DNA of 64,000 bases from Amyelois transitella (lineage: Eukaryota > Arthropoda > Insecta > Lepidoptera > Pyralidae): the NCBI RefSeq assembly GCF_032362555.1, contig NC_083507.1, positions 4,839,001-4,903,000 on the forward strand. Reading direction: 5' to 3'. The position numbers and the translations under genes were made by a program. The notes under the pieces were generated by a model. It did not search any database and had not been told where the DNA came from. It saw nothing but the letters and a program-made list of their open reading frames with translations. This document shows positions 14,659 through 43,894 of the stretch, piece by piece; position 1 is the first letter of the stretch; each line of letters starts with the position of its first letter.

Positions 14659-14939
14659 GACAATTATTCTCAAAATTTCTTTAGAATATTTCCTTTCATA
14701 ATTCAGAAATATAAGATATTTTGTCATCAAACTGAGCGTCACACAAGTCAATACAATATAGATGACAGGCGACTCCTTAGAGTATAGAAAATTAAAAATA
14801 ATATCATAGTTATGTAAAATGAGAATTTACGCATGTATGTCGTGTGAACCTTCCAAAACCTAACTTCTTAAATGGTCTGAAACCGTTGAGATAATGACAA
14901 GAGCCTATCGTGACTAAACAAAAAATAAAAAAGTTCCTC

Positions 14940-15058
14940 ATTAATACATACATTTCCCGGAGGGATAGGCAGAGACTACCTCTTTCCACTTGCCACGATC
15001 CCTGCATACTTCCTTCGCTTCATCCACATTCATAACTCTCTTCATGCAAGCTCGGCGG
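14940..15058 (-). mobile_element. RTE-like LINE, 3' end fragment
   Basis: On the minus strand this encodes [20 protein letters not shown] and continues through [15 protein letters not shown], then a short TATG-type tail ('atgtatgtatt'). It is nearly identical to the last part of the complete element at 29828-33134. It is a strongly 5'-truncated insertion between the two small paralogous genes. Confidence 0.85.
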
Positions 15059-15180
15059 TTCATTAATATTTGATTATAATATAAGATTTACCTTCAATAT
15101 TCCATAACTTATTTAAAAAGGAAATAGGTTAGTGTAAATAAAAAGATATCTTACTTTATCTAAAATCTGTATCATAATCT

Positions 15181-15702: not shown

Positions 15703-16823
15703 AGTGAGCTTTCATTGTCACAAGTGAAAACAGATAAGACATTTATTTTTTTAATACGCTACACTCGACGCTACACTTTTATTTCGAAATAGTTCATCAA
15801 ACATGTAGGTTTCAAACTTTAATTTAAATAGGAATCGAAATAATTATTTATTTACAAAATTTAAATCTCTCATTAATTATAAAATTACTGCATTCTAAAC
15901 GCCACCATAGTCATTGTATTCAGAGCCATGCTAGTTTCAGTAGAGACCTCATCCCTTTCGCTAATCAAGTAAAGGACTTTTACAGAACTCAGCAATCGAA
16001 GGCATTAACACGTAACTACTAAACCTACCTCGAGACTAGACCCCTTCGGAGGTGGAACATTAAAGATTCCTAGAGCAATCGAAATTCTCCAAAAGTTAAG
16101 TTCTTCCAAATTACCGTAGATTGCATGGCGCGCAATCTCGAATACAAATGAGGAACGGGATAAGGAAGTTCATCTTCAGACGGGACGTGCTTCGAATGCT
16201 GGAATCTTTGGTTTCCCTGATGTTTTCTGAATTAATTACTAATCATACAGTCTTTATACGGTTGGAATTTTTATTTTAGACGATGGGCTAGTAACTTTCT
16301 GTCTTTTCAAAACTGCTGTCTTCCTCGTAAGGGATAAAGTCGTATGTATGTACCTATATAAATATTGATATTATTTTAATGCTATGATAGAAGTTCAGTA
16401 CAAATGATATCATCAGTTGATAATCTGGGTTTAGTTTCGCAGCATCCAAGATTATCATCAGTCTTCAAAAATAAAGTGTAGAGATAAATACCTACCATAT
16501 GCAAATATTATGGACATAGTAAAACCGATAGAAGCCCATCAAAATTTTGCGTATTTTTGAACCTCTTCCTTTAAAGTGCCTGTAGTCTTCCACTACTGGA
16601 TAAACTCAACTAAAAAATCTCGAATCTTTCGTTAGCCATACTACATGGTTACGCATCTACACGTGATACGTCTAATTCAAATGGTACATCCTGGTCGATC
16701 TCCAGACTACGAAATTAAAAGATTGTTCTTATGACACCTATGAAGGTGTGGCTAAGATGAGTCGGAGTTTCGCAAGTCGTTCTGACCCAAGGTCGCTTCT
16801 CCTCAACTCTTGCGCATCGCCAT
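15703..16823. other. Intergenic region upstream of the chitin-binding cluster
   Basis: No gene was seen. A short, internally deleted SINE-like copy lies at about 16262-16360 (+), with 'gacgatgggctagtaac', 'cttttcaaaactgctgtctt' and 'agtcgtatgtatgtacc'. Sequence closer to 16824 is the presumed promoter of the first chitin-binding gene. Confidence 0.4.
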
Positions 16824-16868: not shown

Positions 16869-19800
16869 ATGAAGGCTTTTGTGGTTTTGGCGTGCGTCTG
16901 CGCCGTAGGTAAGTACCATGGATACGCGTATAATAGCAAAATCATAATAATAATTAGGTTCTTTACTATAACAATATGGGGTACAATTAATACATACATA
17001 GTTTTCGTAACAAAACAGCACAATTTTTAACAGTTTTCCATACTGATTTAAAAATCTAATTAAGAGGACTCACACCTTTAAAATTAATAAGAACTAATGA
17101 AAACAAAAAAACATTAAATCCAACCACACAATTATTAGTAATGCTTCATGCGACCAAAGAGTTTAGTGGGTTTTTCCAATTAGATAATTTTATAAACCCT
17201 TCAAGAATCGTTGTGACAGAGCGCCAAACATTTTTTATATTTTATAGTTGAATGCAATGCAAATGCATGGAACTAAAACTCCTGCTTATTGTGCCCAAGT
17301 CAACATTTTCTAAGCAATATTGTCAAAAAATTAAAATGTATCCAATTTTAGAAAACGCTTACCTAGTACCTACTTACTGTACATGTACTTATACCAAAAT
17401 TTAAATAACACTTTTAATGTGTTCTTGTATAGATTCGGAGGAAGAAGGCATTTAATTACCTATAACAACAAATGACAGAGGCTTGGCCACTCCATAATTG
17501 GGTAATTAGCTGTGAAATAATAGACACGAATGTTAATTTTCACGCGGTCATGGGAGAAAAATAATGATAGTATAGAGATAACATCTTAATTAAATTTCAA
17601 ATTAGTTAAATAAGTTATTTTTATGCATTAAAATAGAAACCTGACCCAGTCGTCAAAATAATATAGTTTTAGAGTTACGTTAGTAAAGGCCAGAAATAAC
17701 AACAAATTGAGCAACTAGAAACACAAAATCGAAGCTGATATAGTAGAAGTAGTAGGTAGAATTACGGATTTTTGTTATTGGAATTATTATCAGTTTTATC
17801 TTACCAAGAATTTATTACTTTTATACACCAATCAATTTCAATATAAAATGCATATCATACAAGAATCTGTACACTCGAACAATATGAATAACAGATGTTT
17901 AAAAATATCAAAATGTTTTGTCTAGGTATTGTTTTTATGAATCTACGAAAGAATATCCCTCCTCATTTTTTCAATTGGTTGAAATGAATAAATTATTTTT
18001 TCTATTATCGCTTGCTGTGCATGCCGTGCGGTGGCCGGCACCAATAGAAAAATGAAAAGGACCATTCCATCTCTTTACCATGGATGTCGTAAAAGGCGAA
18101 TGAGGGATAGGCTTATAAGCTTGGGATTCCGTTTTTAGGCGATGGGCTAGCAACCTGTCACTTGTTGAATCTCAACTCTACCAATAAGCAAAACATCTAA
18201 ACGTGGCCTTTCTGTCTTTTGAAGACTTTTGGCTCTCCCCTGCAAGGGATAAAGACGTGACTATGTGTATGTATGATATGTTAAAATAAAGAACTTGGAT
18301 TAACTTTTCTTCTATAACGTTTTTGTTTTGTAGCCGCAGCTTCGGTTGGATCGAAAACAATGGCACTATTTAACCTTAATTAGTGTCTAATGATGTAATT
18401 AATAAAGATGTTCGTAATTTGTATTATTTCATAGGCAGAATATATTATCTGCTTCAAACTTGTTCTATTGTTACATAAGTTACGAATGTGTAAGACACGC
18501 TAAATGAGTTGGGTTTACGGTAATACAAAAAGACTTAATTTGTAGTTTCCTTTTTGGGATAAATAAATAATAAATAAAATAAATACATTTTTAATACTGG
18601 AAATTATATTTTATAATAAATATTTATAAAGATAATCATCAAAGACAATCAGAGAAAGTTCGTTTCTCACCCTGACCGAAATTCGAACTCAGGGGCTCTG
18701 GAGTCACAGACAAGCGTACTACCGCTGCGCCACAGAGGCCGTTCTGTAAAAACTAATAGAAAGATTCAAATAATTAAAGTGTCCTGGTCCTTAAGCTTTT
18801 GTGGCGGGTGCAACTGTAAACACGCAAAGTTAAAAGAGTGAGATGTAAGTTCTTATAGTATTAATTACCTGTCTGGATTTCAATTATTATTTTTTACAGT
18901 AAACGCGCAGTTTGGAAATTCGCAATACCAATCATCATTCGGTCAAAATACTCGCGGACAGAACACTTTCCAGTCAACGGCTAGACTTCAGAGTCAAAAT
19001 GCTTTTGGAAACCAAAATCAGAGGAACCAGTATCAGCAGAATCAATATCAACAAAATCAGTATCAACAAAGCCAGTACCAACAGCCTTCTGCGCCAAGGT
19101 CGCAAAACCTCGGATCCTGCAGAGACAACGAAAGAAACCCAGTTTCTGGCAGCTGCGATCGTTACGTCGAATGTGTTGTAAGTAGAACACGCCTACAGCT
19201 TCGGTCACGTAAAAAAAATACCGCTTATTTCCGTTCCCGTGGGAATTTCTAGAAAATCTGTCTCCGTAGGGGACTAAAGTTCCTAAAAAATATACATGCC
19301 AGATTTAAGCTTCCTAGGCCAAGTAGTTACAGCTGTATGGTGTCATCAGTCAGTTGCTAGAGATTGATTTTGTTTCATTTATAATTAAATGAAAATACAT
19401 ACTCATATACAACCAGAAAAGAATACGACATTAAAATACTAAACGACCTACATCTGTATACCTACAACGTGTAATATTCGCAAAGCTTTACCTCATTTGT
19501 ATGTAAGATGTGTTGATGAACAAACTAGCACTCATGTAGATAAAACAAAAAGAATATTTGGACCGTAAAATATTCGCAACCGGATTCTAATGTTTGAAAT
19601 GACCTGAACAAATTATTTCTGTATTCTGATGTCTACGAATGCAAAGGTTAAGGAAACTAAAAATTAAAAGCGATATAGATTTCTATATCTAAGTTTAGTT
19701 TCTAACTACGGTCAACGTAGTAAGAAGAAATCTATATTTTTTTTATTATTTCAATATTTAATTGACTGCAGTTTAACTGATGTATAAACTGTATTTCCGT

Positions 19801-22800
19801 GAAGTTTCCAAGTTCAATACTCAAATATTATCACATTTTTCATATTAGTGAAATAAGATTGTTGGTATAAACAAATGATTTGTATAATACTGATTCTTGA
19901 AGGTAATACTTACAAAAAAGAACATGACAGTGGTGCCTACAGCGACAACCTAGACTTCGAGCTGATGATGCATCTATGAGAACAAAGACGAGTTCTTTAA
20001 AACATTTTTACTTTAAAAACTCTTGAAAGTCAAATTGTCTAAGAACTTTGTTTTTTTTTCTAATCCAGTCTGCTTTAAAATGAGTAAAGTAAATTATAAT
20101 TTAAAATTTACGTTTAGAATGGAACAGCAGAAGAAAAGACTTGTCCAGACGGTCTTCTGTTCAACCCCAGTGCGAACGGCTATCCTTGCCAGTACCCCAA
20201 CGAGGTGACCTGTCTTGAGCGTTCTTCCTTACGTGAGTAAAATATTAATACATAGAATTAAAATAAAAATATAAGTACCAGATACTTACATGCCTACACG
20301 GGATTGCCTAACGATAAGCTTCTGGTCACAGTTGACTAAAACTGTGCAATTAGATGTTATTTTTCTCTAATGTATCTTTGTTACAACAGGCATGTTTAAT
20401 GTCTTCAATTGAGCACAGTAAAGTTACTTTCTTGTAAATTTTCTTCTCAAAAATCTGAATAATTTTAAGACTAATTTGAACTATTTTAAGTTTTATGTTT
20501 ATTTCTCATATTACACAAAATTACTTCTGTTACACCTAAACCACCTACCGCATAATGAAGCTTGCTTGACCATGTTTTTCATGAGCGTTATTTACGTTCA
20601 TTCTGCCTTTCACGCGGAATTTTTCACACTGAGAACAAACTGATATTATCATAATTCAAATACACTGGCAGCCATGTAGCCTTCCACACATATTAACATT
20701 TTCCACAGTTTATCTAGACACATCATCGTTGTGCCAACGTCTTGGGCGCTTCACGCAACTTAAAAGGTCACCTTTGTATACTTTACGTCTTAAGATTGAT
20801 TGCATATACGTTTCTTGTTCTTTTAATTCCACATTGCTTGCCGTTTGGTTGAAAAAAAAAACAGATAGATTCATTGAAGTTTATTGGTATTTATTGAGAA
20901 TAAACGACAGTATTACCAAACTTAAGGAAAAATATTGCATTAATTTAAACAAAAGATATCAACGCGTTTAATGGATTAATAAAAAAAATTACTGACACAT
21001 ACGGACATTACATGAGATAACCAATGTACAACAGAAACAATGAAATAGTTTTTTTTTTTTCGGAAAAAAATATTGAGCCCTGTTTCAAGATAAAGCTCTA
21101 AATGCAAAATTATCACATTGCGGTTTGTATATTTTTTAATTGCATTAATTTAAAAAGCAATCATTCTATTCTATTCGCTCTTACTCATTCCACGCGTTGG
21201 TATCTTTGGTTCTTTCTGTATTTTTCTTATGCCCATAATTTTAGTTCCTAATTTTATTTTTGGTTGTTGACTTTACAGCTCAATGTCTACTTACAAAGAA
21301 TATGACAAGCTGTAAAAGTTGCGACATCGTTATAACGGTCTGGGGCACTAGTTGTTTTGTACTTAATGGACGCAGACCTCCACGTTTAAGTAACTTTAAC
21401 TCTTTCAGAGCCTGCCCAACCGACCGCCGACTGCCCCCACCAATTCGGTTTCTTCAAGCTGGGTGACGCTCGCAACTGCAGCGGTTTCAGGAACTGCGTG
21501 AATGGAGTTGGTTTCGACTTCACTTGTCCTGAGGGCCTGGCCTTCAGCTCTGAGACATACCGCTGCGAGTGGCCAGACCAGGTCGCCGACTGTGACGCTG
21601 AAGGTAAGCAGAGATCTTTATACACCTGACCAACTGAAAATAATCAGATAAGTATGTACCTAGTTAGTGCACTTTTCAGACATTTCCATCCTTCATTTAA
21701 GTTCATTTCATTCATTCATTAACCTTCAACTCTTTTAACTCAAACTCCACTAAGCCTACCCAATTCAAATATCTATGAGTCAAACAGCATTTTTGAAATA
21801 AAATCATTTTAAGCCAAAACATTAATCAATACATTAGGCCAAAAATTGTAAAATAATTGATCGCTTTTTGTAAAGGCACACATTTGATTTGTACTCCATA
21901 ACTTCTTACACCAAATACGGCTATTTAGTTTCTCTGGTAAATCTTTGTTGCAAACCTCCTTACGCAGTACAGACAATAATATTAAATTACCATTAACATA
22001 CTTTATATGTGACCTCACCTTTTGTAAGTAATACCAGAGGTTAGATCTATAATAAGATGTTTTTATTCGCTTAGCTGACTGACGACATATATCAGATCTT
22101 ATGAATACTTCAGTCCTTTTGATACGGTCCGAAAACTCAAAATAGGTAAAAGTCTTTTGCGAAAAACGAAGTAAAATTTATGTAGGTATTCATTCTACAT
22201 TTTTGTTTTGTTTTAAACTTATTAATGTTTGATTTAATTGTTCAAGACTAATTATTTTCTCAACTTTTCAGCTTTTCTTGGTTTCCGGTGTCCAGAAGTA
22301 CCAGTATCTAGAGAGCTTGGGCCGCCTGTGGGATACAGATTTTATAGGTAAGTTATATACAGTGTCATTATCATATGCATGCATTAGCATATAGTATATT
22401 ATTAAACTTATCTATGTATCACTGTATCTACGATAAGGAAAATCATTTTGGTATATTTTCATCATTTTTAAATTTAGAAACACATTTATCATAGGTAGTT
22501 TTAGATAAATTGATAAATTGTTATCAAGGTTCAGTTACTAGGGAATTAATTGGAAAATCAATATTTCAAAAAACTTGTTTGATCAACGCTAGTAACTTTT
22601 CGTTGAAAAAAAAATACGTTACTTCTTCATATTTTCTGGTAGTTTAAGTTAAAATTTATATTTACCACTTTAGCCAACCGCAAGTTTCAGTTTTGTTTTG
22701 AAACTTTGTCGATTGTCTTACTTAATAGATGTTATTTTCTTAAATATTTTACGAACACGGTCATCACATACATATAGTTTGCGTAAACGTTAGTGCACGC

Positions 22801-23966
22801 AACAAATTGCCTCACCTAAGGTATACGTCTTATTGTTTTCCGCATATTGGAATCTGTGTATATTGTGTACAGTTGAAATTACAGTCATAAATCTAAGTCA
22901 TTATTAATTATCTTGGCTTAATAAATAATAAAAAAAGACCGTCTCTTTAACCTTCAATCGAACACTCAATTTAAAAAAACAGACAAAGTGTTACATTACG
23001 AAAACCAAAATAGGTGCTCATTTTATTTGATTAGAACAAATAAAAGTAACGCTTGTTTTCAATCGGTCAGATATTTATGGATTGAAATGTTAACTGGTTA
23101 CCTAATGAACCGGTCGGTCATTGCAGGTCTTTAATGTCAGGAGATGAGCAAAGTTGACCTTGTGTTATATAACCTCGCATTAGAAATGCCAACCCGAGTA
23201 CATCACTTGACCTTCTTTATATTTATTTTTATTAAATTAATATCGAAATGTTGCTCTTAAGTAGATATTGAAAGATAAAGTTGTGTCAGAATCGTACGTT
23301 AAATATAACTACCTACTTCTTTTACCCGCAGATTAGCTTATGTAAGTTTTGCCTTTCTAGTTCATCGTTCTCCTGATGTTAGATCCGCTGTCGTCTTCAT
23401 CTCTCTTGAGAGGAGCTTCTTTGCAGGGGAATCATATATTGGATTATTTATATACTTACTTCCTATCACCGCTTGTCTACCTGGTAAACGGGATAAAAAA
23501 TAACTACTTATATTTTTAGTCTGTCTCTATTATCTACTTTTTCTATTAATTTACTTCACTTCTTAATTAGAATTTCTGACAGAAAACTTCATTACATAAA
23601 CGTACCATGACATTGATTGTATTCATTGAACAACTAGTTACAATTAGCGGTGCCATCAATTCCTAATTAGATGAAGGCAATTACTCTTTCTTTTTTCCTT
23701 ATTAACGTAACTCTTATATTTTCAGATCTGACAGTAACTGTCAGAAATACTTCCTCTGCATCGAAGGTCGCCCTCGTGTTTTGTCATGCGGTGGGGACTC
23801 TGGCTTTGACGAGCTCACGTCCACCTGCGTGTCAGCAGACGAGGTCGGTGCCTGCCCTCCAGAGCTGAGAGAAGCCGCTGCTCGCTCGCGCCAGGAAGAG
23901 AAACAGCGGTTGGCTAAAGAAATAGATTTCTACTCAAAACCTTTGGAACATAAAAGAAGGTTTTAG
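16869..23966 (+). CDS. CPAP3-type chitin-binding protein, obstructor-E-like, with Gln-rich N-terminal linker
   Basis: Six coding exons: 16869-16908, 18900-19177, 20118-20232, 21409-21603, 22272-22347 and 23726-23966. They join in phase (1, 0, 1, 1, 2) into 314 residues. The signal peptide (MKAFVVLACVCAV) is split by the first intron. Residues 18-86 form a Gln/Asn/Tyr-rich linker with three QYQQN-type repeats. Three ChtBD2 (peritrophin-A, six-cysteine) domains follow: from C87 with DRYVEC and CPDGLLFNP; then CPHQFGFF to RCEWPDQVADC; then FRCPE to DEVGAC with YFLCIEGRPRVLSC. Spacing and the LGF-x-CP lead into domain 3 match Drosophila obstructor-E. Such proteins are secreted and organise chitin in cuticle. 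The C-terminal 40 residues are Arg/Glu-rich. The Gln-rich insert is unusual for CPAP3 proteins. Family and splice model are well supported; orthology is likely but not proven. Confidence 0.92.
18020..18280 (+). mobile_element. SINE-like repeat, near full length
   Basis: Located in intron 1 of the first chitin-binding gene. It shows the whole family order: 'ccggcacc' head, 'catggatgtcgtaaaaggcg', 'gcgatgggctagcaac', 'aaacgtggcc', 'ctgcaagggataaagacgtg' and the TATG tail. Confidence 0.8.
18578..18745 (-). mobile_element. tRNA-derived SINE
   Basis: On the minus strand the head reads 'cctctgtggcgcagcggtag' (box A region) and 'gagttcgaat' (box B region). It is followed by 'gagaaacgaactttctctga' and a TATTTATTATAAAA-type AT-rich body. 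The cloverleaf is too degenerate at its 3' half to be a working tRNA. The same SINE family is present at 396-640. Confidence 0.7.
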
Positions 23967-25751: not shown

Positions 25752-28100
25752 ATGACTCCTTTTATTCTGATCACTATCTTCTTGGTCGCTACCAGTAAGT
25801 ACCAAACACAACAGTGAAATGTCTTTTTTAATACTTACTTATTTATACACCAAACTGTAGGAATTGCATTTTGTTTAAAATTAATTACAGTACGAGTCGC
25901 AGGAATAAAGCAGTTAACTTATAAATAGTGATTAACCCTTGCTATCAAAAAGTATAAGGATTACAACGCTTTATTAATCGTTTTTCTTAATGATCTAAGC
26001 GTTTTCCAATACCGACTATAGGGTAATTAAATGGACTTAAACTAATAAATAAATTGTATTAGCATAATTCATTTATGGCTTTTAAAAAAAAATATATTCT
26101 ACATGTGTTGATTGATAAATTGTGTTGGCCACTTGGAAGGGTATGTAAAATTGTTTATGGCTGTCAGATTATGGAGCTTCCATGGAAGAGATTCAGCAAA
26201 AGAGCCCTAACTGCGCTGCCCGGTATGGGTTCTCTCCGGTGGAGGGAAGCTGCGACTCCTACATCGAGTGTATGGTTAGTACACATAAAGAATGTAAAAC
26301 CTCGCTGAAAAGATCAAAAATTTATAAACTCTTTTTAAACTGCAGGTTTCAAAGTCTCTTAGATTTTCAATTTAGGCTGTAAGATTGTACCATATTAAAC
26401 AACACATAAAAAATAATTTTATGAAAAAGTATCATTTAACGATCAATAATAACGGAATAGACACAGCACGTATAAAAATATAAAATAAAGATGGCTTAAT
26501 TAAATAGAAGTTTGACGTTACTTTAGTGATTCAAAAACTTTATGTATGAGAGAGATTTAATTGATAACATAATGAAAAAGATAACTCATGAATTAACGAT
26601 ACCATTTTCTTTCATTCATCATCTTTGTTTCATTCATAGGATTTCCAACCGAAGCACTTGCAATGTCCCGACGGGCTTCACTACGACCCTGAAGTAGTAT
26701 GGCCTGCATACCCTTGTGGATACCCGTCGGAAGTTGTTTGCCAGGGACGCGGTTCTCCTCGTAAGTTTCCAATTCTACGTTTTATCTTTGAGTAATTATA
26801 CGAGTAGGTTTCCAAGCGGTTACGAACCTCTTAGTACTTTTCCTGCAAATAATATTAATTTAATACCTACAAGCTGCGCCCTCCGGCTTCGCTCCCATTG
26901 GAATTTCTAAATAAAAAGTAATAAATTTTGGTTATTCCATGTTATGTTATACACGTGTACCAAATAACATTAAAATTCATGCCGTAGATTTTACGCGTAG
27001 GATTACTAAATACAAATCCACACATCCTTATAAACTTCATAATTTAAAAGAAGTATACATAAACATAAATCTGATCCAATTTAACTAAGATCGCGGTGAG
27101 AGATACGTTTAACTCTCGACAAAATTTCTTCAATGTTCGTAAATTAAATTTAATAATGAATTTACCTCAATTTCATACCTTCAGAGCTAGCTAAAGCAAC
27201 AGCTGAATGCCCGCACCAATACGGCTTCTTCCCGTCCCCGAAGGCTTCCTCCAGCGAATGTGGATTCTACCACAGATGTGTGGAAGGCAAGGCAATAGAG
27301 ATGCAGTGCCCACCCGGACTGGCTTTCAACCCTGAGACCGCCCGCTGTGATTGGCCTGACCTAGTGGCTTCTTGTAACGCTGATGGTACATACTATGCAA
27401 TATATATTTTTTTTACCTAACCTTTTTCCATTCCTTTTGGTTTTTGTTGATCATAGACATCAGCCGAATCAACTCAACTTCATATACAAATAAAATAATA
27501 GATACCTACCTAACTTATATGTTAACTAACAAAAACGATATATATTTTTTCAGAATTCTTAGGATTCAAATGTCCAGCTGGTCCTTTAGACGAGAACAAT
27601 AAGCCTTTGGATACTGTTATCAACTACAAGTAAGTATACATAAACCATGAAACGAAAACACATTATCATTTTAAGAAGCGAAGTAGGTATACGTCTCGCC
27701 ACACATAATTGTCACGTCTTTATCCCTACTATTAGGTAGATAGACACAATAATCTTTGAAGATTGAAAGATTGAAAGGCTACGTTAAATTCTATAACTTT
27801 ATGATGAATTGAAATTCTTGTTGCTTGGAAGGAGAAATTTGGAGGAGTGTGAAAGAAATGAGGGGAATTAATTCAACACAGTTAATATCACCCTAGAAAA
27901 CTTATTAAAAACTCTTTAATTTGAATAATAATATATTAAAAAATTTCAGGTACGAAGGAAACTGCTTCGCGTTCTACTCGTGCATCCACGGCAACGCTCG
28001 CCTGCTGACCTGCGACCCTGGGTTCGGGTTCGACCCCAGCTCTGGCAGCTGCAAACCATCAGACAAAATTAACTGCGAGAATCCGAGGCGTCCCGCGTAA
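25752..28100 (+). CDS. CPAP3-type chitin-binding protein, obstructor-E-like
   Basis: Six exons: 25752-25794, 26168-26274, 26640-26760, 27185-27385, 27554-27629 and 27950-28100. Phases 1, 0, 1, 1, 2 are identical to the upstream paralogue, and exon 5 is 76 bases in both. The 232-residue product starts with a signal peptide (MTPFILITIFLVAT). It carries three six-cysteine ChtBD2 domains: domain 1 with GSCDSYIEC and CPDGLHYDP, domain 2 with ECPHQYGFF to RCDWPDLVASC, and domain 3 from EFLGFKCPAG through NCFAFYSC to a C-terminal INCENPRRPA. It lacks the Gln-rich linker of its neighbour and is near the normal CPAP3 length. It is predicted to be a secreted chitin-binding protein of cuticle or a related matrix. 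A polyadenylation signal AATAAA lies at 28171-28176. This is a tandem duplicate of the gene at 16869-23966. Confidence 0.93.
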
Positions 28101-29814: not shown

Positions 29815-32800
29815 TATTTTATACCAATCTAAGGTCTGCCGCGCCGATGGATGCATGGCTAGGGGCGAGCCTAGTCTCGAGCGTGCCACTTCCGCCATGG
29901 GGTTGGGCGACCCCCAGGTAATGGCTAGCCTTACCCTGGCATGCGGGGCTCTGCTGGGGCGGACAAAATTTTTCCCTAGCGTCTCGTGGGAATCGCATGG
30001 ATGCAAATTTTTTGAAAGAGCACCTAGATGGCGGCGATGGTGTCCGCACCCCATCACGTCTCGTTCCCGGCGGGAGCGGTATGCGGTCTGCTGAAAGCCG
30101 CTTTGCGACGATGAATGTAAGAGGAGGAATGAAGGATAAGATTGAGGAAGTATGCCAGATGATGGATGAAAGACGTTTGGATGTGTTGTGCGTGAATGAA
30201 ACGAAGCGGAAAGGATGCGACGCGACGCAGCACGGCCCTTACACGGCGTATTGGTCTGGAATTTCCAGTACCAGCCGAGGCTGTCAAGGGGTCGGTCTAA
30301 TTCTTTCTGCACGAATGGCTGAGTGCGTGAATGAGTATGAGTGTGTCAGCCCTCGTCTTCTATGGATTAGGCTGAAAGTTGGAATCACTCGGATCTTCGT
30401 TCTAGGTGTTTATGCACCTTGGGATGTGGGTTCGAGGGGTACAACATCAGCAAAAAGCGAAAACGAGGAGTTCTGGAATAGTGTAAGAGAAGTATTGAAA
30501 GTTACCAAGCCAAATGAGAAGATTATTATGTTAGGTGATTTTAATGGATGGGTGGGTGTAAAGCGTGATGGATATGAAAAGGTGCTTGGTGCGTTTGGTG
30601 ACGAAAAGGTGAATGATAATGGAAGAAGTGTATTAGAAATTTGTCTAGAGTGGGATCTTTTTGTGTCGAACTCAATGTTTCAACATAAAGAGATCCACAC
30701 CTACACAAGAGTGGAAGGTATTTTAAAAAGTATGATAGACTTTGTGATTGTAGATGAAAGATTGAAGAACAAAGTGCTGGATACCCGTGCATATCGCGGT
30801 GCTGGCATTGACTCGGACCATTTACTGGTGATATCCCGGATAAGGGGTATCTTCAATCGCTGGCGGCACAGGGTAAGGGAGCAAACCAGCGCTTTGGAAA
30901 GAGTAAAAGTAGGAAATTTGCAAGATATGGATGTAGGTAAGAAGTATATTAATAGACTGAAGGATGAATTTGAAGATTTAGAGGAAATGAGCGATATTGA
31001 AGATGGATGGAAGGAATTTAAAGAAAGAATTGTGAAAGTAGCTGTTGAAGTGTGTGGTGTAAGTAGAAGAAGGAAAGGAAAAAATCACAAAAATGCGTGG
31101 ATGAGTAAAGATGTGCAAGAACTTGTGCGATTAAAGAAGAAAGCATGGCTGGATTTGTTAGCAGCAAAAGCTAACTTAAGAATGCAAGAGGTTATAGATG
31201 AAGATGTGAATGAAGCACGTAAGGAATATAAGAAAATGAAAGATTTGGTTAAGAAAGCTGTGATTAGAAAGAAAGAAGAGTATAAAGAGGATTTTGATAA
31301 AAGGCTATCAGAAGACTTTCAGTCAAATCTGAAAGTATTCTGGAAATCCGTAAGGTCAGCCCGAGGAAATACTATAACCAGAGAGCTGACTAGGATCAGA
31401 TGCCAGGATGGTAGCGTTGTGAAAGGAGAAGAATGTGTACTAAAGATATGGAAGGACTATTTTGAAAGTTTATTTGAAAAAAAGGAAGGAAATAAGAAAG
31501 ATTTCTGCTATAGCGAAGAAAAAGAGAATGAGATGGAAGGCGAAATTGAAATGTTCGAAATTGTGGAAGCACTTAAGAGTATGAAAGCGGGAAAGGCTGC
31601 TGGGTGTGATAGAGTGTCGGTCGAGATGCTTAAAGCAGGAAAAGGCGTAGTAGCTAGTCAGTTGTACTGCCTTTTCAATTTGTGTTGGAGAAGCGGCCGA
31701 GTACCAAAAGATTGGTGTAAGGCTGTTATCGTGCCACTTTACAAAGGAAAAGGGTCACAGCTGGACTGCAAAAATTATCGTGGTATAAGCCTGCTTAGCG
31801 TCGTCGGCAAATTGTATGCTAAGGTATTGATTAATAGAGTCAGGAATGAAACTGATGACAAAATATGGGATGCTCAAGCGGGATTTCGAAAGGGAATGGG
31901 ATGTACTGATCAGGTCTTTTCCTTGCGGTGCATAGCCGAAAAGTTTTTGGCCAAGAGTCAAAAAGTCTATTGCACATTCGTAGATCTGGAAAAGGCCTAT
32001 GACAGAGTTGAGAGGAATGAATTGTGGTCAGCACTTTCTATGCATGGGGTGAGCAGTCTCTTAATACGAGCACTGAAATCCTTATATGAGGATTCGAGTG
32101 CTTGTGTCAGGATAAACGGAGCGCACACTGAGTGGTTTAAGATTGAGAAAGGCGTTAGGCAAGGATGTGTTGCGTCACCGTGGCTGTTCAACCTATTTAT
32201 GGATAGCTGTTTGACAGATTTGAAAGAGTCTAAAAGTGGATTAAGGATGAATGAGTTACTCGTCAAATGTCTGCTCTATGCCGACGATCAGGTTATACTG
32301 GCGTCATCAGCGGAGGAGTTACAGGAGATGGTAAACTGTATGCATGAAGCTTTAAAAGAGAAAGGAATGAAAGTGAACGTAAGTAAAACTAAAACACTGG
32401 TTTTTGAAATGGAGAAAGAAATGACAGCATGTAATATTTTGATTGGAGGAGAAAAAGTGGAGCAAGTGAAAGAGTTTGTATATCTAGGATCAAAGTTTAC
32501 ATCAGATGGCAAGTATGATAGTGATATTGAAAGGAGAGTGAACGCGGGGAACATGGTGAATGGAGCTTTGCATGCCTTTATGAGCAGTCAGAAACTATCC
32601 AAAAAGGCTCGACTGGCTGTGCACAGGGGCGTGTTGGTCCCGACATTAATGTATGGGAGTGAAAGTTGGGTATGGCAAAAGAAGCATGAAAGCAGAATAA
32701 ATGCAGTGGAAATGAGAGCGTTAAGGAGTATGATGGGTGTGAAATTGAGTGACAGGATAAGGAACAGCGTGATAAGGGAATGTTGTGATGTGAAAGAAGA

Positions 32801-33147
32801 TGTAGTTACAGGAATAGAAAAGGGTATGTTAAGATGGTTCGGTCATGTGGAGAGGATGAATGAAAGCAGGTTGACTAAGCAGATATACAAGGAGAGTGTG
32901 GAGGGAAAGGTCGGAGTGGGAAGACCTAGACGAACGTATCTTGATCAAATTAAGGACGTCCTGGTAAAGGGTCAGGTCAAAAGTACCCGAAACCGCCGAG
33001 CTTGTATGAAGAGAGTTATGAATGTGGACGAAGCGAAAGAAGTATGCAGAGATCGTGGCAAGTGGAAAGAGGTAGTCTCTGCCTACCCCTCCGGGAAAGA
33101 GGCGTGATTTTATGTATGTATGTATGTATGTATGTATTTTATACCAA
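29815..33147 (+). mobile_element. Complete RTE-like LINE with 13-bp target-site duplication
   Basis: The 13-base direct repeat tattttataccaa at 29815-29827 and 33135-33147 flanks the element (29828-33134, about 3.3 kb). Inside are a GC-rich 5' region, one intact 1036-codon reading frame (29997-33107), a very short 3' UTR and a (TATG)n tail at 33113-33134. Size, single frame and short-repeat tail match the RTE clade of non-LTR retrotransposons. The perfect duplication and unbroken frame indicate a recent, possibly active insertion. Truncated relatives lie at 14940-15058, 47668-48003 and 63255-63462. Confidence 0.92.
29997..33107 (+). CDS. LINE polyprotein: AP endonuclease plus reverse transcriptase
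   Basis: The 1036-residue product nicks target DNA and reverse-transcribes the element's own RNA at the break. The N-terminal endonuclease/exonuclease/phosphatase domain (about residues 35-280) shows MNVRGG, the NETK motif, GDFNGW at 180-185 and the SDH triad at 273-275. A Lys/Glu-rich linker follows. The reverse transcriptase (about 500-830) shows YRGISLLSVVGKLYAKVLI, AGFRKGMGCTDQ, the FVDLEKAYD motif, GVRQGCVASPWLFN and the catalytic YADD at 761-764. The C-terminus carries WFGHVERM and [11 protein letters not shown], typical of this LINE group, and ends YPSGKEA. No frameshift or stop interrupts the frame. The chosen ATG is the first in frame upstream of the endonuclease; a later one near MNVRGG is possible. 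It is a selfish gene, unrelated to the chitin-binding neighbours. Confidence 0.93.
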   Translation: MDANFLKEHLDGGDGVRTPSRLVPGGSGMRSAESRFATMNVRGGMKDKIEEVCQMMDERRLDVLCVNETKRKGCDATQHGPYTAYWSGISSTSRGCQGVGLILSARMAECVNEYECVSPRLLWIRLKVGITRIFVLGVYAPWDVGSRGTTSAKSENEEFWNSVREVLKVTKPNEKIIMLGDFNGWVGVKRDGYEKVLGAFGDEKVNDNGRSVLEICLEWDLFVSNSMFQHKEIHTYTRVEGILKSMIDFVIVDERLKNKVLDTRAYRGAGIDSDHLLVISRIRGIFNRWRHRVREQTSALERVKVGNLQDMDVGKKYINRLKDEFEDLEEMSDIEDGWKEFKERIVKVAVEVCGVSRRRKGKNHKNAWMSKDVQELVRLKKKAWLDLLAAKANLRMQEVIDEDVNEARKEYKKMKDLVKKAVIRKKEEYKEDFDKRLSEDFQSNLKVFWKSVRSARGNTITRELTRIRCQDGSVVKGEECVLKIWKDYFESLFEKKEGNKKDFCYSEEKENEMEGEIEMFEIVEALKSMKAGKAAGCDRVSVEMLKAGKGVVASQLYCLFNLCWRSGRVPKDWCKAVIVPLYKGKGSQLDCKNYRGISLLSVVGKLYAKVLINRVRNETDDKIWDAQAGFRKGMGCTDQVFSLRCIAEKFLAKSQKVYCTFVDLEKAYDRVERNELWSALSMHGVSSLLIRALKSLYEDSSACVRINGAHTEWFKIEKGVRQGCVASPWLFNLFMDSCLTDLKESKSGLRMNELLVKCLLYADDQVILASSAEELQEMVNCMHEALKEKGMKVNVSKTKTLVFEMEKEMTACNILIGGEKVEQVKEFVYLGSKFTSDGKYDSDIERRVNAGNMVNGALHAFMSSQKLSKKARLAVHRGVLVPTLMYGSESWVWQKKHESRINAVEMRALRSMMGVKLSDRIRNSVIRECCDVKEDVVTGIEKGMLRWFGHVERMNESRLTKQIYKESVEGKVGVGRPRRTYLDQIKDVLVKGQVKSTRNRRACMKRVMNVDEAKEVCRDRGKWKEVVSAYPSGKEA

Positions 33148-33385: not shown

Positions 33386-33421
33386 TATAAAAGTAAGATT
33401 TAAAGAGACCATAATTTCAGT
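33386..33421 (+). promoter_or_regulatory. Core promoter: TATA box plus initiator
   Basis: TATAAAAG at 33386-33393 is followed by TCAGT at 33417-33421. The initiator A (33419) lies 33 bases after the first T of the TATA box, ideal spacing for an arthropod TATA promoter. It predicts a 42-base leader before the ATG at 33461. This is the best-formed promoter in the cluster. Confidence 0.7.
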
Positions 33422-33460: not shown

Positions 33461-36400
33461 ATGGTTTGGCAAAAAATATTATTTTTATTGTTTTTTTTAG
33501 TTTTTGATGGTAAGTTCTGATACATATTTTTTTTTCTTTTTAATATAAATAATTTGTATATTATTATAATTTATTTACAGTCAAAGCAGTAGAAATATAC
33601 AATGACGGCCGGGATATGGAGCAATCTTGGTATAGAGACTGGAGAAAACCGGTTACAATACACCCAGCTAAAAACAACCAAAGAACACTTTTGAGTACAC
33701 CACCCCCATTATCAATTAATGAGGAGCCTTCAACAACAGGAATGCCCGAACATAGTATACTAGAAATTACTAATTCTTCAATAGACAAGCCAGGAAAACT
33801 TTATGAAATGGAAGAACTGCATAGCAGCTCTATAAGTCCTATTCAGACCCTTATTGAGATACCATCTTCAACAACTCCAACAATACTAACCACGACAGAA
33901 GAACTTCTTGTTGAAACAAAGCCTAGTCATCGTATGTTCAACTTTGGAGTTCAAGAAGCTTCCCAAAAACCTACAGATCTCGCCAAATCAACAAGTGCTG
34001 TATCTTGGAATCCTGAAAGAATTTCAGAATTCCAACTACCTTCTAGTTCGCAAGAGTTACCAGCAATAATTAAATCACAGGAACCAGTGCTAGAAACAAA
34101 GCCTGTCATACATCATACTTTCACATTTGAATCCAGCCACCTTTCTTATCCAGAAGTCGAGCTAAGTAAAACTACACCCAGTAAATTGTACTGGTTTCCT
34201 GAAATCATTGCAAAAACAGAACCGCCCTCAATGCTCACAACAGAAATTTCTTTGTCTGGAATAAAACCTGATTCCAAATCTGTCGATTTTGGAGCACCCC
34301 CACCTTCTTACAGAGAAATGGAACTACCCAAAACATCATCTAGTAAAATATCTTGGGTTCCAGAAATCATAGTTAAATCTAAACCATCTATCGATCTAGC
34401 AATTTCATCTACTATATCTCCAACAGAGAAACCTATACTCGAAATGGAATCAACACAAAACACTTTAAATTTTAAACCAACACAGGTCGAATTCAACACG
34501 GAAAGAGAACAACCCAAAGAAACCACGTCTTTAACTTCTTCTGATATTGTTGTTGAACCTTTAACTTTGCAAACTTCTCCAGATATGTTCAAAGAGGGAC
34601 AATCACCTACCCTAGGAGTCAGCCAAGTCACTTCGTACATGAATTCAGAAATCCCACCAAGTCCAAGAACATCCAATCCTGAAATTATAACAGAATCTAT
34701 GACAACAATACCTGACTTAATTAAAGAAAGAACACAGCCTGCTTTTGAAACGGAGCTCAAATATCGCACTTTCAACTTCGGGTCAACTTCACCTGATTTC
34801 ACAACATCTATCACTCACTCAACTGAATTAGTATCGGAACAAGAATCCTACCATACTGAAACTTTGGCTATTACAGAAATTCCTCGAAATACTGAATTAC
34901 ATACACTAGAGTCCAAAATACCTGCATCGATCCTTAGTGATAAAAATGGTAAGTATGCCACGGAGATTGAATTTGGAGCTCCACCAACGCTAATTGAAAA
35001 TTCACCCGGTTTTATAGTATACAGATTAGAACAACCTCTATTACCGGAAAATCTTGTTAATAATTTCGTATCTTCGGCTCATCCACAAGAATTCAAATGT
35101 CAAGCGAAAAATGGATACTACGAGGTAGTGAGCAACTGTGACAAGTTCGTCGAATGCAAGGTAATCGCTATTTTATAAATTTCGAATATTGGCGTATTTT
35201 AGGCTGGTATTTTAAAATATACAATGTTATGATGATTTCTTTCAGGATAATGTTCTAAAATTATATCAGTGCTCTAACAAACTTCACTTTAACCGGAAAG
35301 CAGTTTGGCCAGCAGTTCCTTGCGATGAACCATCGTTAGCATATTGTAAGATCGAAGAAATACAACTAGCATCAAAAATCGAACACGAACCTGAACCAAA
35401 ACTTTCAGCTAATTTGATCTCAAGTCATTTTGACTTCCTCTGCCCAGAAAACACTGGATATTACAAACATAACAATGATTGTGAAGAATTTATCAAATGC
35501 GAGGTATGTATGTTGATATACTCAAAAACCAAGGTCGGAATTGAAACGTCTAGGCTGAAACTTTGTGCCCCATTTATGATGCTTCATTATTCTATTCTGT
35601 TTACCTATTTCATTTTAATACTTTTTTCACATTAAATCTCTTGAATCAAGGTTTTTGAAAGGGAGACGAAGTACACATCAGCAGTAATAAATCTAAATCT
35701 GATAGTTGAAATATTATATACTAGAGGCCGCCCGCGACTTCGTCCGCATGGAAACCCTATCAATCCCGCGGGAACTCTGGGATAAAAAGTAGCATATGTG
35801 TTATTCTGGGTCTTCAGCTACCTACATACCAAATTTCATGGTAATCGGTTCAGTAGTTTTTGCGTGAAAGAGTAACAAACATCCATACAAACTTTCGCCT
35901 TTATAATAGTAGTAGGATGTATTAAGTATCTAAAAATAATTTTAATATTCCGAATGAAATTTTAGGAATCCATAGCATCATTGTATAAATGTTCATCTGG
36001 GCTCCAATTCAAACACGATGCCACATGGGGTCAAGACCCATGTGCCGATGAAAAAATTATTCGCTGTTATTCTCCAGTATTACAACCTCGATCAGAACCA
36101 AATTTTTCAGCAGATTTAATAACAACACAAATTGCAAATTATGAGTGTACATCTTCTGAGGGATACTTCAAACTTGGGAAGGATTGTGACATGTTCATCA
36201 AATGTGAAGTAAGTAAATATTTTACTCATAAATATTACTTAACTTAATGACACTTCATCGTGTCAATTATGCTCCCTTGATTGAAGTATGAGAATTGGCC
36301 CAGGTATTTTCTGTACCAAGAAATTAAGGAAAAACATAAGGGTGGAAGAAAAGCAAATTTGTTTGAATAGGAAGTCAGAGTACTTACAAAATTACATAAT

Positions 36401-39109
36401 ATATACCTATTTCAGAAATCCTCACCGTCTGCTTACAAATGCTGGCAAGGACTCCAGTTCAACGTAAACGCAACTCGGGACGTAGACCCGTGTGCTAGTA
36501 AAGAAATTATTGGCTGTGTTGTTGCTGATGTTGAATCAAATAAAGAGCCAGTGTCAAAATTCTCAGCTATCGCGTTGTCTAAGATCATTTACGACTTTAC
36601 CTGCCCTGCAAACAATGGATATTTTGAATCCAAAAATGAGTGCGAGGAATTCATTAAGTGTGAGGTATAAAAATATTATTTTTTTATTAAAAAAATATAA
36701 TACATTTGTTGTTCGCCTCGAAGTTAGTCCTAGCGAAAACTTTTTTTTACAAAACTTTGAATGTCTCAAGAACGACTGAACCGATTGCATTGCTGAATTT
36801 AAAAATTCTATAGACAGACCTTAAATTTTATCTAAATCAGACCAACAGTTCAAAAGTTATCGTGTTACAAACATACATACGTACGTAAAAAAATTGTATC
36901 TTCGCCCCAAGTTGATCAATATCTAAGAATGTAAGAGGTAGACAGAGCTCACAACTTCAAATAGGCTAGGCCACGTTCGGCTTATTTCAATTTAAATAAT
37001 TGTCGGTTGCAAGCTCATCCCTTGTTAGAAGAATCTCAAGTTTCTACACCTTTCCCGTGATTGACTTTTACAATCTGCGCCAAAAGGGAAGCAGCTGGCA
37101 CACACTTGAACCTATACACCATCTATTACGAGTAAATAATTATTTCAATTTAGAATGCAGTCGCCTCACTGTACAAGTGCTTGCCTGGTTTGCGATTCAA
37201 CCGCAACTATTCTTGGGGAGAGGACCCGTGCGAAACTGAAGCAATCGTTACCTGTAAGCCAGTCGTCCTAGAAGGCAAACCTTTGGCACCCAAGTTCTCA
37301 GCTACTATGGAATCGAGTATAGTCATCGATTTCAGCTGCCCGGCTAACAATGGGTATTTTGAAACTAAAAATGAATGCGAGAAATTCATCAAATGCGAGG
37401 TAAGTTAAATTATAAGTATAAAAATCTTTATGGGCGGAACAGTAATTAAAGTAATCTAAAACGTTTATTTTTAATTTACAGAATGCGGTTGCATCCCTGT
37501 ACAAGTGCTTGCCTGGACTGCAATTCAACCGCCGCTCGTCTATGGAAGAGGACCCGTGTGACAGTGAAACAATTATTGGCTGCAAACCAGTCATTTTAGA
37601 ACCCAAACCAATGCCGCCCAAGTTCTCAGCTACCGTCGAAACTAGTGTAGTCATCGATTTCAGCTGCCCGGCTAACAACGGATACTTCGAGACTAAAAAT
37701 GAATGCGAGAAATTCATCAAATGCGACGTAAGTTTAATTAGGTATTCGTTTTTAAACCAATTTAATTCCAATTTGCCACATGAAGTTATGCAACTTCATT
37801 TCGGAAAAGAAAAAGCTATAAATATTGTCTTTGAAATATTTATCTGCAGATTTAATAATAATAACAAAATAATGCATTTTATAATAATAACAAAATAAAT
37901 TTATTTCTGGTGTACAGAATGCTGTTGCATCTCTGTACAAATGTTTACCTGGTCTGCAATTTAACGGCCGTTCGTCTTTGGGAGAAGACCCGTGCGAGAG
38001 TGAAGAAATTATTGGCTGCAAACCAGTCATTTTAGAACTCAAACCATTGCCATCCAAGTTCTCAGCTACCATAGAATCAAATGTAGTAGTCATCGATTTC
38101 AGCTGCCCGGCTAACAATGGATACTTTGAGTCTAAAAATGAATGCGAGAAATTCATCAAATGCGAGGTAATTTTCATTTTATGAACGATATCTAATTTAA
38201 TTTTAAAGTTATTTATTTAATTACTGCAAATGTAGGACGAGATGCCGAGTCTTTTATGCTTAATATAAAGTATTATGTAGTAGGTTGCATCCTATACAAA
38301 TTTTCACCTAGCCTGCAATTCAACCCCCGGCGCTCGACTTTGGGAGAAGACACGTGCGAGATTGAAGCAATCGTTGCAATCAAAAATCGGATGCAAACCA
38401 GTCATTTTAGAGTCGGTTGGGACTCGTTGCCGCAAAATCTCTGCTAGATACTGTTGAATCTTGTTTAATAATCGATTTTAGCTGCCCGTCTAACAATGGA
38501 TACTTCAAGTTTAAAAATGATTGCGAGAAATTTAACGAATGCAAAATTTCATAAATCTTTAAATTGAAAAGTCTGGGATCTCTTGCATCTAATAATATTT
38601 TCACCCCACACAAAAATATTTACTAACCACCATCAGGTGAAGATATGTGATCTCTGCTAACACCTCCGAAAAAAATCCCGAATAAAAATACTTATATTTA
38701 CCGAAAAGTAACCGTATAAATTGACAATTAAAATTTATTTTCCAGAATTTTATGGCAACATCGTACAAATGCTGGTCTGGTCTTCAATTCAACCCTCAAG
38801 CCTTCTGGGGGCAGGATCCTTGTGCCAGTGCATCGGCTGTGGGTTGCAAAGCCGTCGACATACCAACTACTTCTACGCCTAGACAGAATTTCTCAGCAAT
38901 CCTCATATCCAGTCCGCATATGGACTACAGATGTGAAGTGTCTCGTGGACACTTTAGTATTGAAAACAACTGCGAAAGATTTGTCGAATGCGAGGTGAGA
39001 TTTTTATTTTTTATATAAGTACCTAATTGTAATTTTGTTTGTCAAGTAACCTTTGTAATTTTGTTTCTTGTGTTTATCAGTCTCGATGTTTTCTGTGTAC
39101 ATAAATTAG

Positions 39110-39165
<56 letters not shown>

Positions 39166-41119
39166 AATTTAAAGAGTTGTGAAGTGATATAATGTACAAT
39201 ACCTTTAAAAATTGTCTCGAAATTAAATGAAATGTCTATACTTACCAGATGTTCGTGCCATCATTGTACATGTGTCCAAATGGACAGCAATTTAACACAA
39301 GAACTCGATTTGGTGAAGAGCCTTGCGCAAGTGCGTCGATAGTGCAGTGTGAAGTCAAAACTACTACACCCGCAGTGGTCGAAACTGCCATGACTACAAC
39401 CACTTCTGTACAAGTCCTGTCATACACATTGATCTTGAAAAATGTGCTTGGTTATACTTGTGCTGCTGCTACTGGATATTACAACGTAAAAGATGAATGC
39501 GATCAATTTATTGCGTGCAAGGTAAATAAAAGTTTTATAAGGTTCGTTCGTTTTCTTTACTTTAAGGAATTCTCTTTTATAAACAGTGTGGTCAAAAGAC
39601 TACTTATTAGATGTATACTAGTTACATATGTCATAGAAGCAAATGATTAGCACGAAATGTTAAGAAATACTTATGTAAGATCAATGTCAAAAAACGCAAT
39701 GCAAAGTTGATTCTTATAACTCTATCTTATCATAGATATCAATATCAGAATCCTTAATAAGGAGTTTTGAAATATCATTGTTACTAAAAAGGTGTTGTTA
39801 ACAATTAAGTACAGCCATAACTAGGCTATAAAGAATCTTGACTCAGTTTATTCCCGTTAAAAATATTCTTCGTCCTTTTTCAGAATTATATTCCATCGTT
39901 GTACAGATGCAATTCTGGTCTTCACTTCAACCAGAACGTGATGCGAGGCGCGGATCCATGTGCTCAACCATCGGTAGCACGTTGTGAAAAATATCTCAAG
40001 AGTAAGCAAAACCGATTATATAACTATCATCATCATCGTAACTTTAGCTCGGATTAAATCCTCAACCTCATCGATTTGGAATCATGGTTACACAATCAGT
40101 TGCTGAAATGAGCAGGTTTCCTCGTGACGTTTTTCCTAATAAGAAAAAAAAAATTATGCTTCTTTCTTAGGGCCACTAGGAGTTATAGAAAACGATGATA
40201 CCCAAGACGGCTTCCAGTGTATGGAGAGAGATGGCATATTCCCGTTCGACACATTGGAATGCAGTAAATATATAATGTGTGAAAAGGGCATGGCCACAGT
40301 GATGCCTTGCCCGCCAGGACTGGTGTTTAACCCTGAGCTTGAAACATGTGATTGGCCTGTAAATGTACCAACATGCAACCCGGAATGTAAGTTCAATTTT
40401 AAAAAATACGAAGTCGAATCTCTTTTTTAAGTTCAATTAAATTCTATTAAAAAACAATGACTCTACAATATTCTAAAAGTACTTATTCAAAACAAACAAG
40501 ATTACGAAGAATGCCAATTACCTACACGTAGAAAATCTTAGTTATATTGGTTTTTAATATTAACAATAACAGTATCTTTGAGCATTGATTAAAACCTTTT
40601 TAAAACTAAATAAGTTGCATGTTAGAAACTACAAGTTTATTTTAGTTCTTTTTTCTATATAAGATGCATAAGTTATTGGTGAACGACTAGTAATACCTAA
40701 TTTGTTTATTTTCAGTATTCCAAGGGTTCTCGTGCCCCGCTCCTGAAAATGACGAATATGGCAGTATTTCGGATAAAATTACTACATTCAAGTAAGTACA
40801 ACTCCATCTTTCTCGATTATCCTGAACGCTTAATGATCAAACGTGTATTTGAAACTGAATCTTTAACTTGACATTTTTAGTGCAATTTAAAAAAAATATT
40901 GAGTTAGGAAGAATGTCCCGTAGGTAATCCTTTTGTTTTTTTATACCCATAACTCCAAACACTATCAAATATTTTTTCAGATATGAAGAAAGTTGCACAC
41001 AATATATCGCTTGTCAACACGGACACCCTCGACTACTCAGTTGCGACAAGGGACTGTCCTTCAGCGAAGAAATTCAGGCTTGCGTTAGTACCGAAAAAGT
41101 TCTAAGATGCAGAAACTGA
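33461..41119 (+). CDS. Large mucin-like protein with 11 ChtBD2 chitin-binding domains
   Basis: Fourteen coding exons: 33461-33509, 33581-35160, 35246-35503, 35966-36208, 36416-36664, 37154-37399, 37482-37727, 37918-38166, 38746-38994, 39249-39521, 39884-40001, 40171-40386, 40716-40791 and 40981-41119. They join in phase into 1396 residues. A signal peptide (MVWQKILFLLFFLVF) is followed by about 500 residues rich in Ser, Thr, Pro and Glu, with degenerate repeats such as ETKP...FNFG and SWVPEII. Nine ChtBD2 domains follow, each split by a phase-0 intron; a typical unit reads NGYFE-K-ECEKFIKCE, then SLYKCLPGLQFN and EDPCE. Domains 10 and 11 lie in exons 12-14 and match the last two domains of obstructor-E, including a 76-base exon 13. 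It is predicted to be a secreted, O-glycosylated chitin cross-linker of cuticle or peritrophic-like matrix. AATAAA lies at 41335-41340. The splice model is well supported; the biological role is inferred. Confidence 0.9.
35721..35917 (-). mobile_element. Short non-autonomous Helitron
   Basis: On the minus strand it starts TCCTACTACTATTATAAAGG, has a 'gcggacgaagtcgcgggc' end motif and finishes CTAG. It is preceded by A and followed by T, the usual A^T insertion. It sits in the intron between exons 3 and 4 of the 11-domain gene. Confidence 0.7.
36685..36990. repeat. Repeat debris in intron: transposon remnant plus SINE fragment
   Basis: 36690-36890 resembles Helitron/MITE remnants ('gaaccgattgcattgctg', 'caaacatacatacgtacg'). 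36915-36985 is a minus-strand fragment of the SINE-like family ('aggtagacagagctc', 'taggccacgttcggctt'). Both lie between exons 5 and 6 of the 11-domain gene. Confidence 0.45.
38281..38535 (+). pseudogene. Decayed duplicate ChtBD2 exon
   Basis: The block aligns with exons 6-8 of the surrounding gene: 'ggttgcatcctatacaaatt', 'cctgcaattcaacc', 'ttgggagaagacacgtgcga', 'tttagctgcccgtctaacaa' and 'tacttcaagtttaaaaatga'. It has lost the acceptor (the cag of its sisters reads tag), contains frame changes and stops after 'gcaatcgttgcaatc', and lacks the GAG|GT donor. Its sister exons are 243-249 bases and start AATGC-GTTGCATC. It is probably spliced over within the 38167-38745 intron. Confidence 0.85.
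39109..39163. repeat. (TAAA)n microsatellite
   Basis: About 13 copies of a TAAA/AAAT unit, in the intron between exons 9 and 10 of the 11-domain gene. Confidence 0.95.
40025..40140 (+). repeat. Interspersed repeat, shorter copy of the 9370-9670 type
   Basis: It contains 'cacaatcagttgctgaaatg' and 'gcaggtttcctcgtgacg', matching the family's conserved core, within the intron before exon 12. Confidence 0.4.
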
Positions 41120-43800: not shown

Positions 43801-43894
43801 TGTCAAATTCATTTTTATTCGAAATACGAAAAGTATTAACATGTCACATTGATTACAATTCAACAAGGAAAAAGATCGTAGTTGAATAATAAAA

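Follow-up and report, generated by a model that had tools for sequence, protein, structure and literature searches.

An eleven-domain CPAP3-E gene of Amyelois transitella that probably arose by multiplication of a symmetrical exon

Gene model and locus

We analysed a stretch of 64,000 nucleotides of the genome of Amyelois transitella (Lepidoptera, Pyralidae; contig NC_083507.1, positions 4,839,001 to 4,903,000 of the forward strand), called the window below. The window contains a gene, G11, whose predicted protein has eleven chitin-binding ChtBD2 domains (D1-D11), and two neighbouring genes of CPAP3 type, G2 and G1. To our knowledge, a constant complement of three chitin-binding domains is what defines a CPAP3 protein. 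Judged from its sequence, G11 is a three-domain CPAP3-E protein in which D1 alone was multiplied, to nine copies, because D1-D9 belong to the D1 class and D10 and D11 are nearest to D2 and D3 of G2.

The 14-exon model of G11 (33461-41119, + strand) is based on predicted splicing. It has a coding length of 4191, encodes 1396 residues and contains a sole stop at 41119 (Table 1), and GT-AG borders were present at 13/13 introns. The protein has 66 cysteines, all of which lie C-terminal to residue 522 and form eleven six-cysteine ChtBD2 domains, and Pfam CBM_14 matched the entire protein with an E value of 8.6e-66. A preliminary description of this DNA had claimed a 14-exon gene with eleven chitin-binding domains, and these results bear it out. 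Eleven CBM_14 stretches were recovered at a per-stretch limit of E 10 and eight at 0.001, so three of the domains are individually weak for Pfam, with their cysteines complete.

All eight of exons 3-10 (258, 243, 249, 246, 246, 249, 249 and 273 bases) begin and end in phase 0, and each encodes the C-terminal half of one ChtBD2 and the N-terminal half of the next, in agreement with the earlier claim of phase 0-0 exons of 243-273 bases made of two half-domains. G2, which gave three CBM_14 matches at E 0.001, has in its last three exons the same start phases (1, 1 and 2) and the same 76-base exon as G11, whereas no 76-base exon was found between D2 and D3 of G1 by a strict search. The statement that G11 keeps the two-domain end and the 76-base exon of its neighbours is therefore shown for G2, one of the two neighbours.

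Table 1. Positions of G11, its exons and neighbouring genes in the window
Feature	Position	Strand	Description
Possible core promoter	33386..33421	+	TATAAA at 33386, TCAGT at 33417; 5' of start codon 33461; sequence motifs
Exon 1	33461..33509	+	Start codon; hydrophobic signal-peptide-like stretch visible in model translation
Exon 2	33581..35160	+	Ser/Thr/Pro/Glu-rich domain, internally built of imperfect repeats; D1 first half follows
Exon 3	35246..35503	+	D1 second half, linker, D2 first half; phase 0-0
Exon 4	35966..36208	+	Unit D2/D3; phase 0-0
Exon 5	36416..36664	+	Unit D3/D4; phase 0-0
Exon 6	37154..37399	+	Unit D4/D5; phase 0-0; member of similar trio
Exon 7	37482..37727	+	Unit D5/D6; phase 0-0; member of similar trio
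Exon 8	37918..38166	+	Unit D6/D7; phase 0-0; member of similar trio
Dead repeat-exon copy in intron 8	~38283..38542	+	By alignment to exon 8
Exon 9	38746..38994	+	Unit D7/D8; phase 0-0
Exon 10	39249..39521	+	Unit D8/D9; phase 0-0
Exon 11	39884..40001	+	D9 second half and linker; 118 bases; matches 121-base G2 exon 3
Exon 12	40171..40386	+	Entire D10; nearest is G2 D2
Exon 13	40716..40791	+	76 bases; D11 start
Exon 14	40981..41119	+	Remainder of D11 (nearest is G2 D3), stop
Neighbour G2	25752..28100	+	Six-exon model, 232 residues, three ChtBD2; position of silkworm CPAP3-E3
Neighbour G1	16870..23964	+	D1, D2 and D3 pieces; model incomplete between D2 and D3; position of silkworm CPAP3-E2

Cysteine spacing and domain classes

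The nine domains D1-D9 have the identical spacing C-x12-C-x5-C-x9-C-x16-C-x7-C, which they have in common with D1 of G2 (12-5-9-16-7). Besides the six cysteines, five further positions (G, F, Y, F, P) are invariant in 9/9 of these D1-type domains. The spacing is 13-5-9-12-8 in D10 and 23-5-9-12-8 in D11, and D3 of G2 shows 23-5-9-12-7. From D1 to D9, the numbers of positions identical to G2 D1 are 23, 12, 13, 14, 12, 12, 17, 16 and 21 of 55; since this identity is highest at D1 and D7-D9, the array has changed least at its ends.

The CPAP3 spacing given in PMC10138643 is Cx13-24Cx5Cx9-10Cx12-16Cx7-8C. D10 and D11 fall within it, whereas the first gap of D1-D9 (x12) lies outside 13-24, as does the first gap (11 or 12) of all 7 other D1 domains in our tree set. 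The silkworm peritrophin pattern CX11-15CX5CX9-14CX11-12CX6-7C (PMC7663561) differs from G11, which has x16 in the fourth gap of D1-D9 and x8 in the last gap of D10 and D11.

To reveal which domain was multiplied, a phylogenetic tree was built from 30 domains of the A. transitella genome, all of them short and with some domains left aside. D1-D9 formed a single clade (83/92) beside G2 D1 (84/73) and then G1 D1 (85/90), within the D1 class. D11 paired with G2 D3 (94/80), and D10 was basal to the D2 and D3 domains (84/82). When the eleven domains were scored pairwise against 19 non-self domains, the best match was a D1-class domain for 9/9 of D1-D9; it was G2 D1 itself for four of the nine (D1, D7, D8 and D9), while D10 and D11 were nearest to G2 D2 and G2 D3, respectively. 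In G11 the D1, D2 and D3 classes thus follow one another as they do in a CPAP3 protein, with moderate supports, but there are eleven ChtBD2 domains in place of exactly three. G11 is a CPAP3 gene by descent and no longer by domain count.

An obstructor-E origin had been proposed for G11. Descent from the CPAP3-E (obstructor-E) group stood, but the gene is better described as belonging to an E cluster of three genes than as the one-to-one orthologue of fly obst-E.

Comparison with the silkworm locus

Table 2 of PMC7379184 gives Bombyx mori CPAP3-E1 a length of 712 residues, three domains and the position 3522018-3526446 on the - strand. The same source gives for nscaf2888 a row of CPAP3-E1, E3 (237 residues) and E2 (280 residues, -), followed further along by A1+, A2+, D1+, B-, PMP2-E+ and C- at 5.64-5.77 Mb and by D2+ from 6.69 Mb on. 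On contig C3 of A. transitella, G11, G2 and G1 occupy 4.88-4.86 Mb, all on the + strand, and further ChtBD2 genes are found at 3.42-3.36 Mb (strands -, -, -, +, -, +) and then at 2.73-2.72 Mb (-). This order is that of the silkworm E1-E3-E2 row and A-D cluster with the strands reversed, which places the three genes in the E cluster. The exception in strand is silkworm E3, which is printed as '+' although its coordinates descend like those of E1 and E2 (PMC7379184). Because the fetched genes were named from their order, the fit is one of order and strand and not one of independent naming.

G11 thus resembles Bombyx mori CPAP3-E1 in its place in the E2-E3-E1 row beside CPAP3-A to D, and also in length, as the protein minus the eight unit exons (671 residues) has 725 residues, compared with 712 in the silkworm. 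It differs in having eleven domains where three are listed, a comparison made by listing and not by sequence. Since the listed silkworm CPAP3-E1 has three domains and 712 residues against the 725 here, the Ser/Thr/Pro-rich domain probably predates the D1 expansion, rather than having been fused to the protein along with the expansion as first supposed.

Searches of the genome

The searches of the A. transitella genome covered 327 Mb in 33 contigs. With exon 8 as the query, the best 13 candidates were scored and 9 of them matched at E <=0.001, namely the eight exons and the dead copy; no repeat exon outside G11 was present among these 13 candidates. Because all 9 matches fall in G11, the repeat array is not due to chance. 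The N-terminal stretch of the protein (35% S+T+P in 500 residues) is encoded largely by exon 2, which matched only itself in the genome (4 candidates scored). The best self-match of exon 2 reached 88, compared with <=52 in 30 shuffles that were scanned in coarser steps. Its imperfect repeats stand ~55-60 residues apart and carry motifs resembling W-x-P-E and F-x-F-G.

At least 117 CBM_14 matches were found genome-wide. Among the matches listed, a 1682-residue frame on contig C11 holds 12 CBM_14 and a 2317-residue frame on contig C15 (3296477-3303304, the source of loci L003-L008) holds 21, so a chain of many ChtBD2 domains is not new in itself. The C15 frame probably encodes a peritrophic protein whose repeats have multiplied recently. 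Many of its CBM_14 matches have a regular 345-base spacing and equal scores. When viral contigs were scanned with a two-domain piece of G11, no relative was found, and neither of 2 pattern matches was confirmed.

The split domain and the origin of the unit exon

In D1 of G1, in D1 of G2 and in D1-D9, a phase-0 intron cuts the domain one codon past the third cysteine. A phase-0 cut at that place was observed in 0/6 of the other CPAP3-type D1 domains fetched: the cut is in phase 2 at L011 (+ strand) and in phase 1, further on, at L012, and four domains (L009, L013, L011 on the - strand, and L015) are uncut there. G2 accordingly shares with G11 the D1 cysteine spacing, this phase-0 cut and the 76-base exon, and differs from it in having three domains, no long N-terminal domain and no fused repeat exon. 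The second half of G2 D1 lies on its own 121-base exon, the counterpart of the 118-base exon 11, and this three-domain gene has no fused unit exon, in which the C-terminal half of one D1 is followed by the N-terminal half of another. Since the unit exon has no place in the three-domain form, it must stem from a joining.

We propose that the ancestral D1 was split by a single phase-0 intron, and that a duplication would have brought the C-terminal part of one D1 together with the N-terminal part of a second, yielding one fused symmetrical exon. This exon would then have been flanked by two copies of the same phase-0 intron, and unequal crossing-over could afterwards have added and removed unit copies. 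It is likely that tandem duplication of this symmetrical phase-0 exon took D1 to nine in the counterpart of CPAP3-E1, after the Ser/Thr/Pro-rich N-terminus was already present. The preliminary description had a symmetrical phase-0 unit multiplied in a CPAP3-E descendant; we retain this and sharpen it, in that D1 alone was multiplied and the unit exon is itself a fusion. One member of the cluster would thereby have broken the three-domain rule of CPAP3 through D1 only, while its neighbours retain the old form, and G11 would be a clear case in which an intron-split domain yields a symmetrical exon able to multiply, and to die, unit by unit.

Several observations weigh against this history. None of the 27 tree branches reached the strict threshold, three domains are individually weak in Pfam, and D2-D6 score highest with D1 of other CPAP3 genes, so that their tie to G2 is weaker. 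Silkworm E1 is known from an annotated entry that has no SilkDB number and may be short of exons (PMC7379184). In addition, a profile of the unit linkers scored a non-significant -3.7 bits in exon 2, where the best of 500 shuffles (363 of which scored) reached 4.7; by ungapped score, the stretch 5' of D1 ranks 19 of 505. Because exon 2 does not significantly resemble the unit linkers, the first joining and its breakpoint could not be placed.

Age of the array and the dead copy

Exons 6, 7 and 8 had been noted as very similar, and their mutual alignment confirmed it, with 82-88% DNA identity and 78-84% protein identity. Between exons 7 and 8 the DNA identity is 88% and the synonymous divergence (dS) 0.37 by NG86 and 0.25 by YN00, and dS between exon 6 and exons 7/8 is 0.41-0.69. 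The ratio of nonsynonymous to synonymous divergence (dN/dS) among the three is 0.16-0.35. For the remaining 25 exon pairs, dS by NG86 is 1.5-4.1 in 8 and non-finite in 17; overall, finite values were obtained for 11/28 pairs by NG86 and 5/28 by YN00. Introns 2-10 gave zero alignments with each other (blastn, E 0.01). Since the youngest pair has a dS of 0.25-0.37 and the introns are no longer alignable, the expansion is not very recent, contrary to the first of two earlier suggestions (recent or homogenised); the trio is its youngest part, though not young by the standards of species.

The dead copy is 72.6% identical to exon 8 across 263 aligned bases (E 3e-37) and has frame-breaking insertions, a lost donor site and one lost cysteine. 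The presence of this dead ninth unit in intron 8 indicates that units have been both born and lost. As a separate observation at few sites, identity at third positions within the trio of exons 6-8 tends to rise from the 5' end of the exon towards its 3' end, which either conversion or constraint might explain.

Function and alternative explanations

The three-domain protein Obst-E of Drosophila binds chitin, and it shapes both the arrangement of the chitin and the ridges of the larval cuticle (PMC5226733). In larval epidermis, E4 is the sole CPAP3 gene not expressed (PMC10138643, where the E numbering differs from that of PMC7379184). By analogy, we infer that the G11 protein may be a strong multivalent chitin cross-linker or organiser in cuticle. 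The presumably secreted protein would use many domains simultaneously to grip adjacent chitin fibrils; eleven linked domains would raise avidity, one chain could bridge several fibrils, and the extended Ser/Thr/Pro-rich N-terminus might serve as a spacer. Should orthologues bear out this sequence of events, natural three- and eleven-domain genes would permit a direct test of the role of chitin-binding valency in cuticle mechanics.

The expansion might instead have served the gut lining, with G11 encoding a protein of the midgut peritrophic matrix. Many ChtBD2 domains with a mucin-like stretch are the usual build of such proteins, which are listed in silkworm with up to 24 ChtBD2 (PMC7379184 Table 2); PMP12-type proteins of that list resemble G11 in having many ChtBD2 per chain, as do the frames with 12 and 21 CBM_14 among the matches listed for our genome. 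However, the domains of those many-domain proteins lie within one open frame, where those of G11 are divided among symmetrical exons, and have a cysteine spacing unlike that of G11 (x11-12 in silkworm peritrophins of PMC7663561, against the x16 gap of D1-D9), and the locus and domain classes of G11 are those of CPAP3-E. The best solved chain by sequence, 8in3, a 25 kDa polyphenol-binding protein with ChtBD2-like repeats, also points to this alternative (E 3.6e-16 with a 462-residue part of G11), but it has 229 residues, matches G2 weakly (E 5.4e-5) and shows a general ChtBD2 likeness, for which it was dropped as a functional lead. A peritrophic role therefore appears unlikely to us. We give a similarly low chance to the scenario that the array is ancestral and that the silkworm lost units or is mis-annotated, without any expansion in the present lineage. 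The great age of the repeat exons beyond 6-8, as judged by their dS, would suit it, as would the missing SilkDB number of silkworm E1. Nevertheless, G1 and G2 each have a single D1, the 712 residues of the silkworm protein are close to the 725 predicted for the unexpanded form, and three is the number of domains given for CPAP3 proteins in flies, beetles and crayfish (PMC5226733, PMC5799365, PMC3504105). A multiplied CPAP3 form was not found described in the literature searched, which is weak evidence, as subscription journals were mostly beyond reach.

Two further alternatives concern the gene model. As the eight repeat exons are all in phase 0-0, any of them could be skipped with the domains left whole, and they might be alternative cassettes of which each transcript uses only some. 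Drosophila Obstructor-E is a member of the CPAP3-E group with exon duplication within the gene, and in brachyceran flies this intragenic duplication gave rise to two obst-E splice variants, whose domain-coding exons are separate (PMC5226733). The fly case, however, is a choice between two sets, with three domains per protein and variants that are chosen by splicing rather than strung together, and the sequence of G11 gives no sign of skipping, which makes cassettes quite improbable. The related idea of a tunable valency, in which exon skipping would yield chitin binders of 3 to 11 domains and splicing would set cuticle stiffness or extensibility by region or stage, is a correspondingly long shot. 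Lastly, repeats commonly cause mis-assembly, and the array could represent an artefact or separate short genes. But the intact copies are at least 12% apart in DNA, introns 2-10 cannot be aligned with each other, and the eight units are in frame, have GT-AG borders and each need a neighbour to complete a domain; an artefact of this kind is hardly credible. Tandem multiplication of the D1 unit exon in a CPAP3-E gene is thus the explanation that we prefer.

Other features of the window

The motifs TATAAA and TCAGT upstream of G11 are of a kind that we take to be typical of arthropod core promoters. Between G2 and G11, a 1061-residue open frame (29922-33107, + strand) with endonuclease and reverse transcriptase matches ends ~350 bases 5' of the start codon of G11. 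In a genome search that scored 40 long copies out of 1377 candidates, itself counted, the rounded identity was 100% for these 40; by these sequences, the element is a member of a very young, busy retrotransposon family. At 14122-15711 on the - strand, two adjacent frames of 234 and 176 residues look similar by eye near their hydrophobic C-terminal ends. Downstream of G11, 43886-45718 (+ strand) is presumably a gene for a multi-zinc-finger protein, and 63582-63938 (- strand) contains what we assume, likewise from inspection by eye, to be a mariner-type transposase-like fragment.

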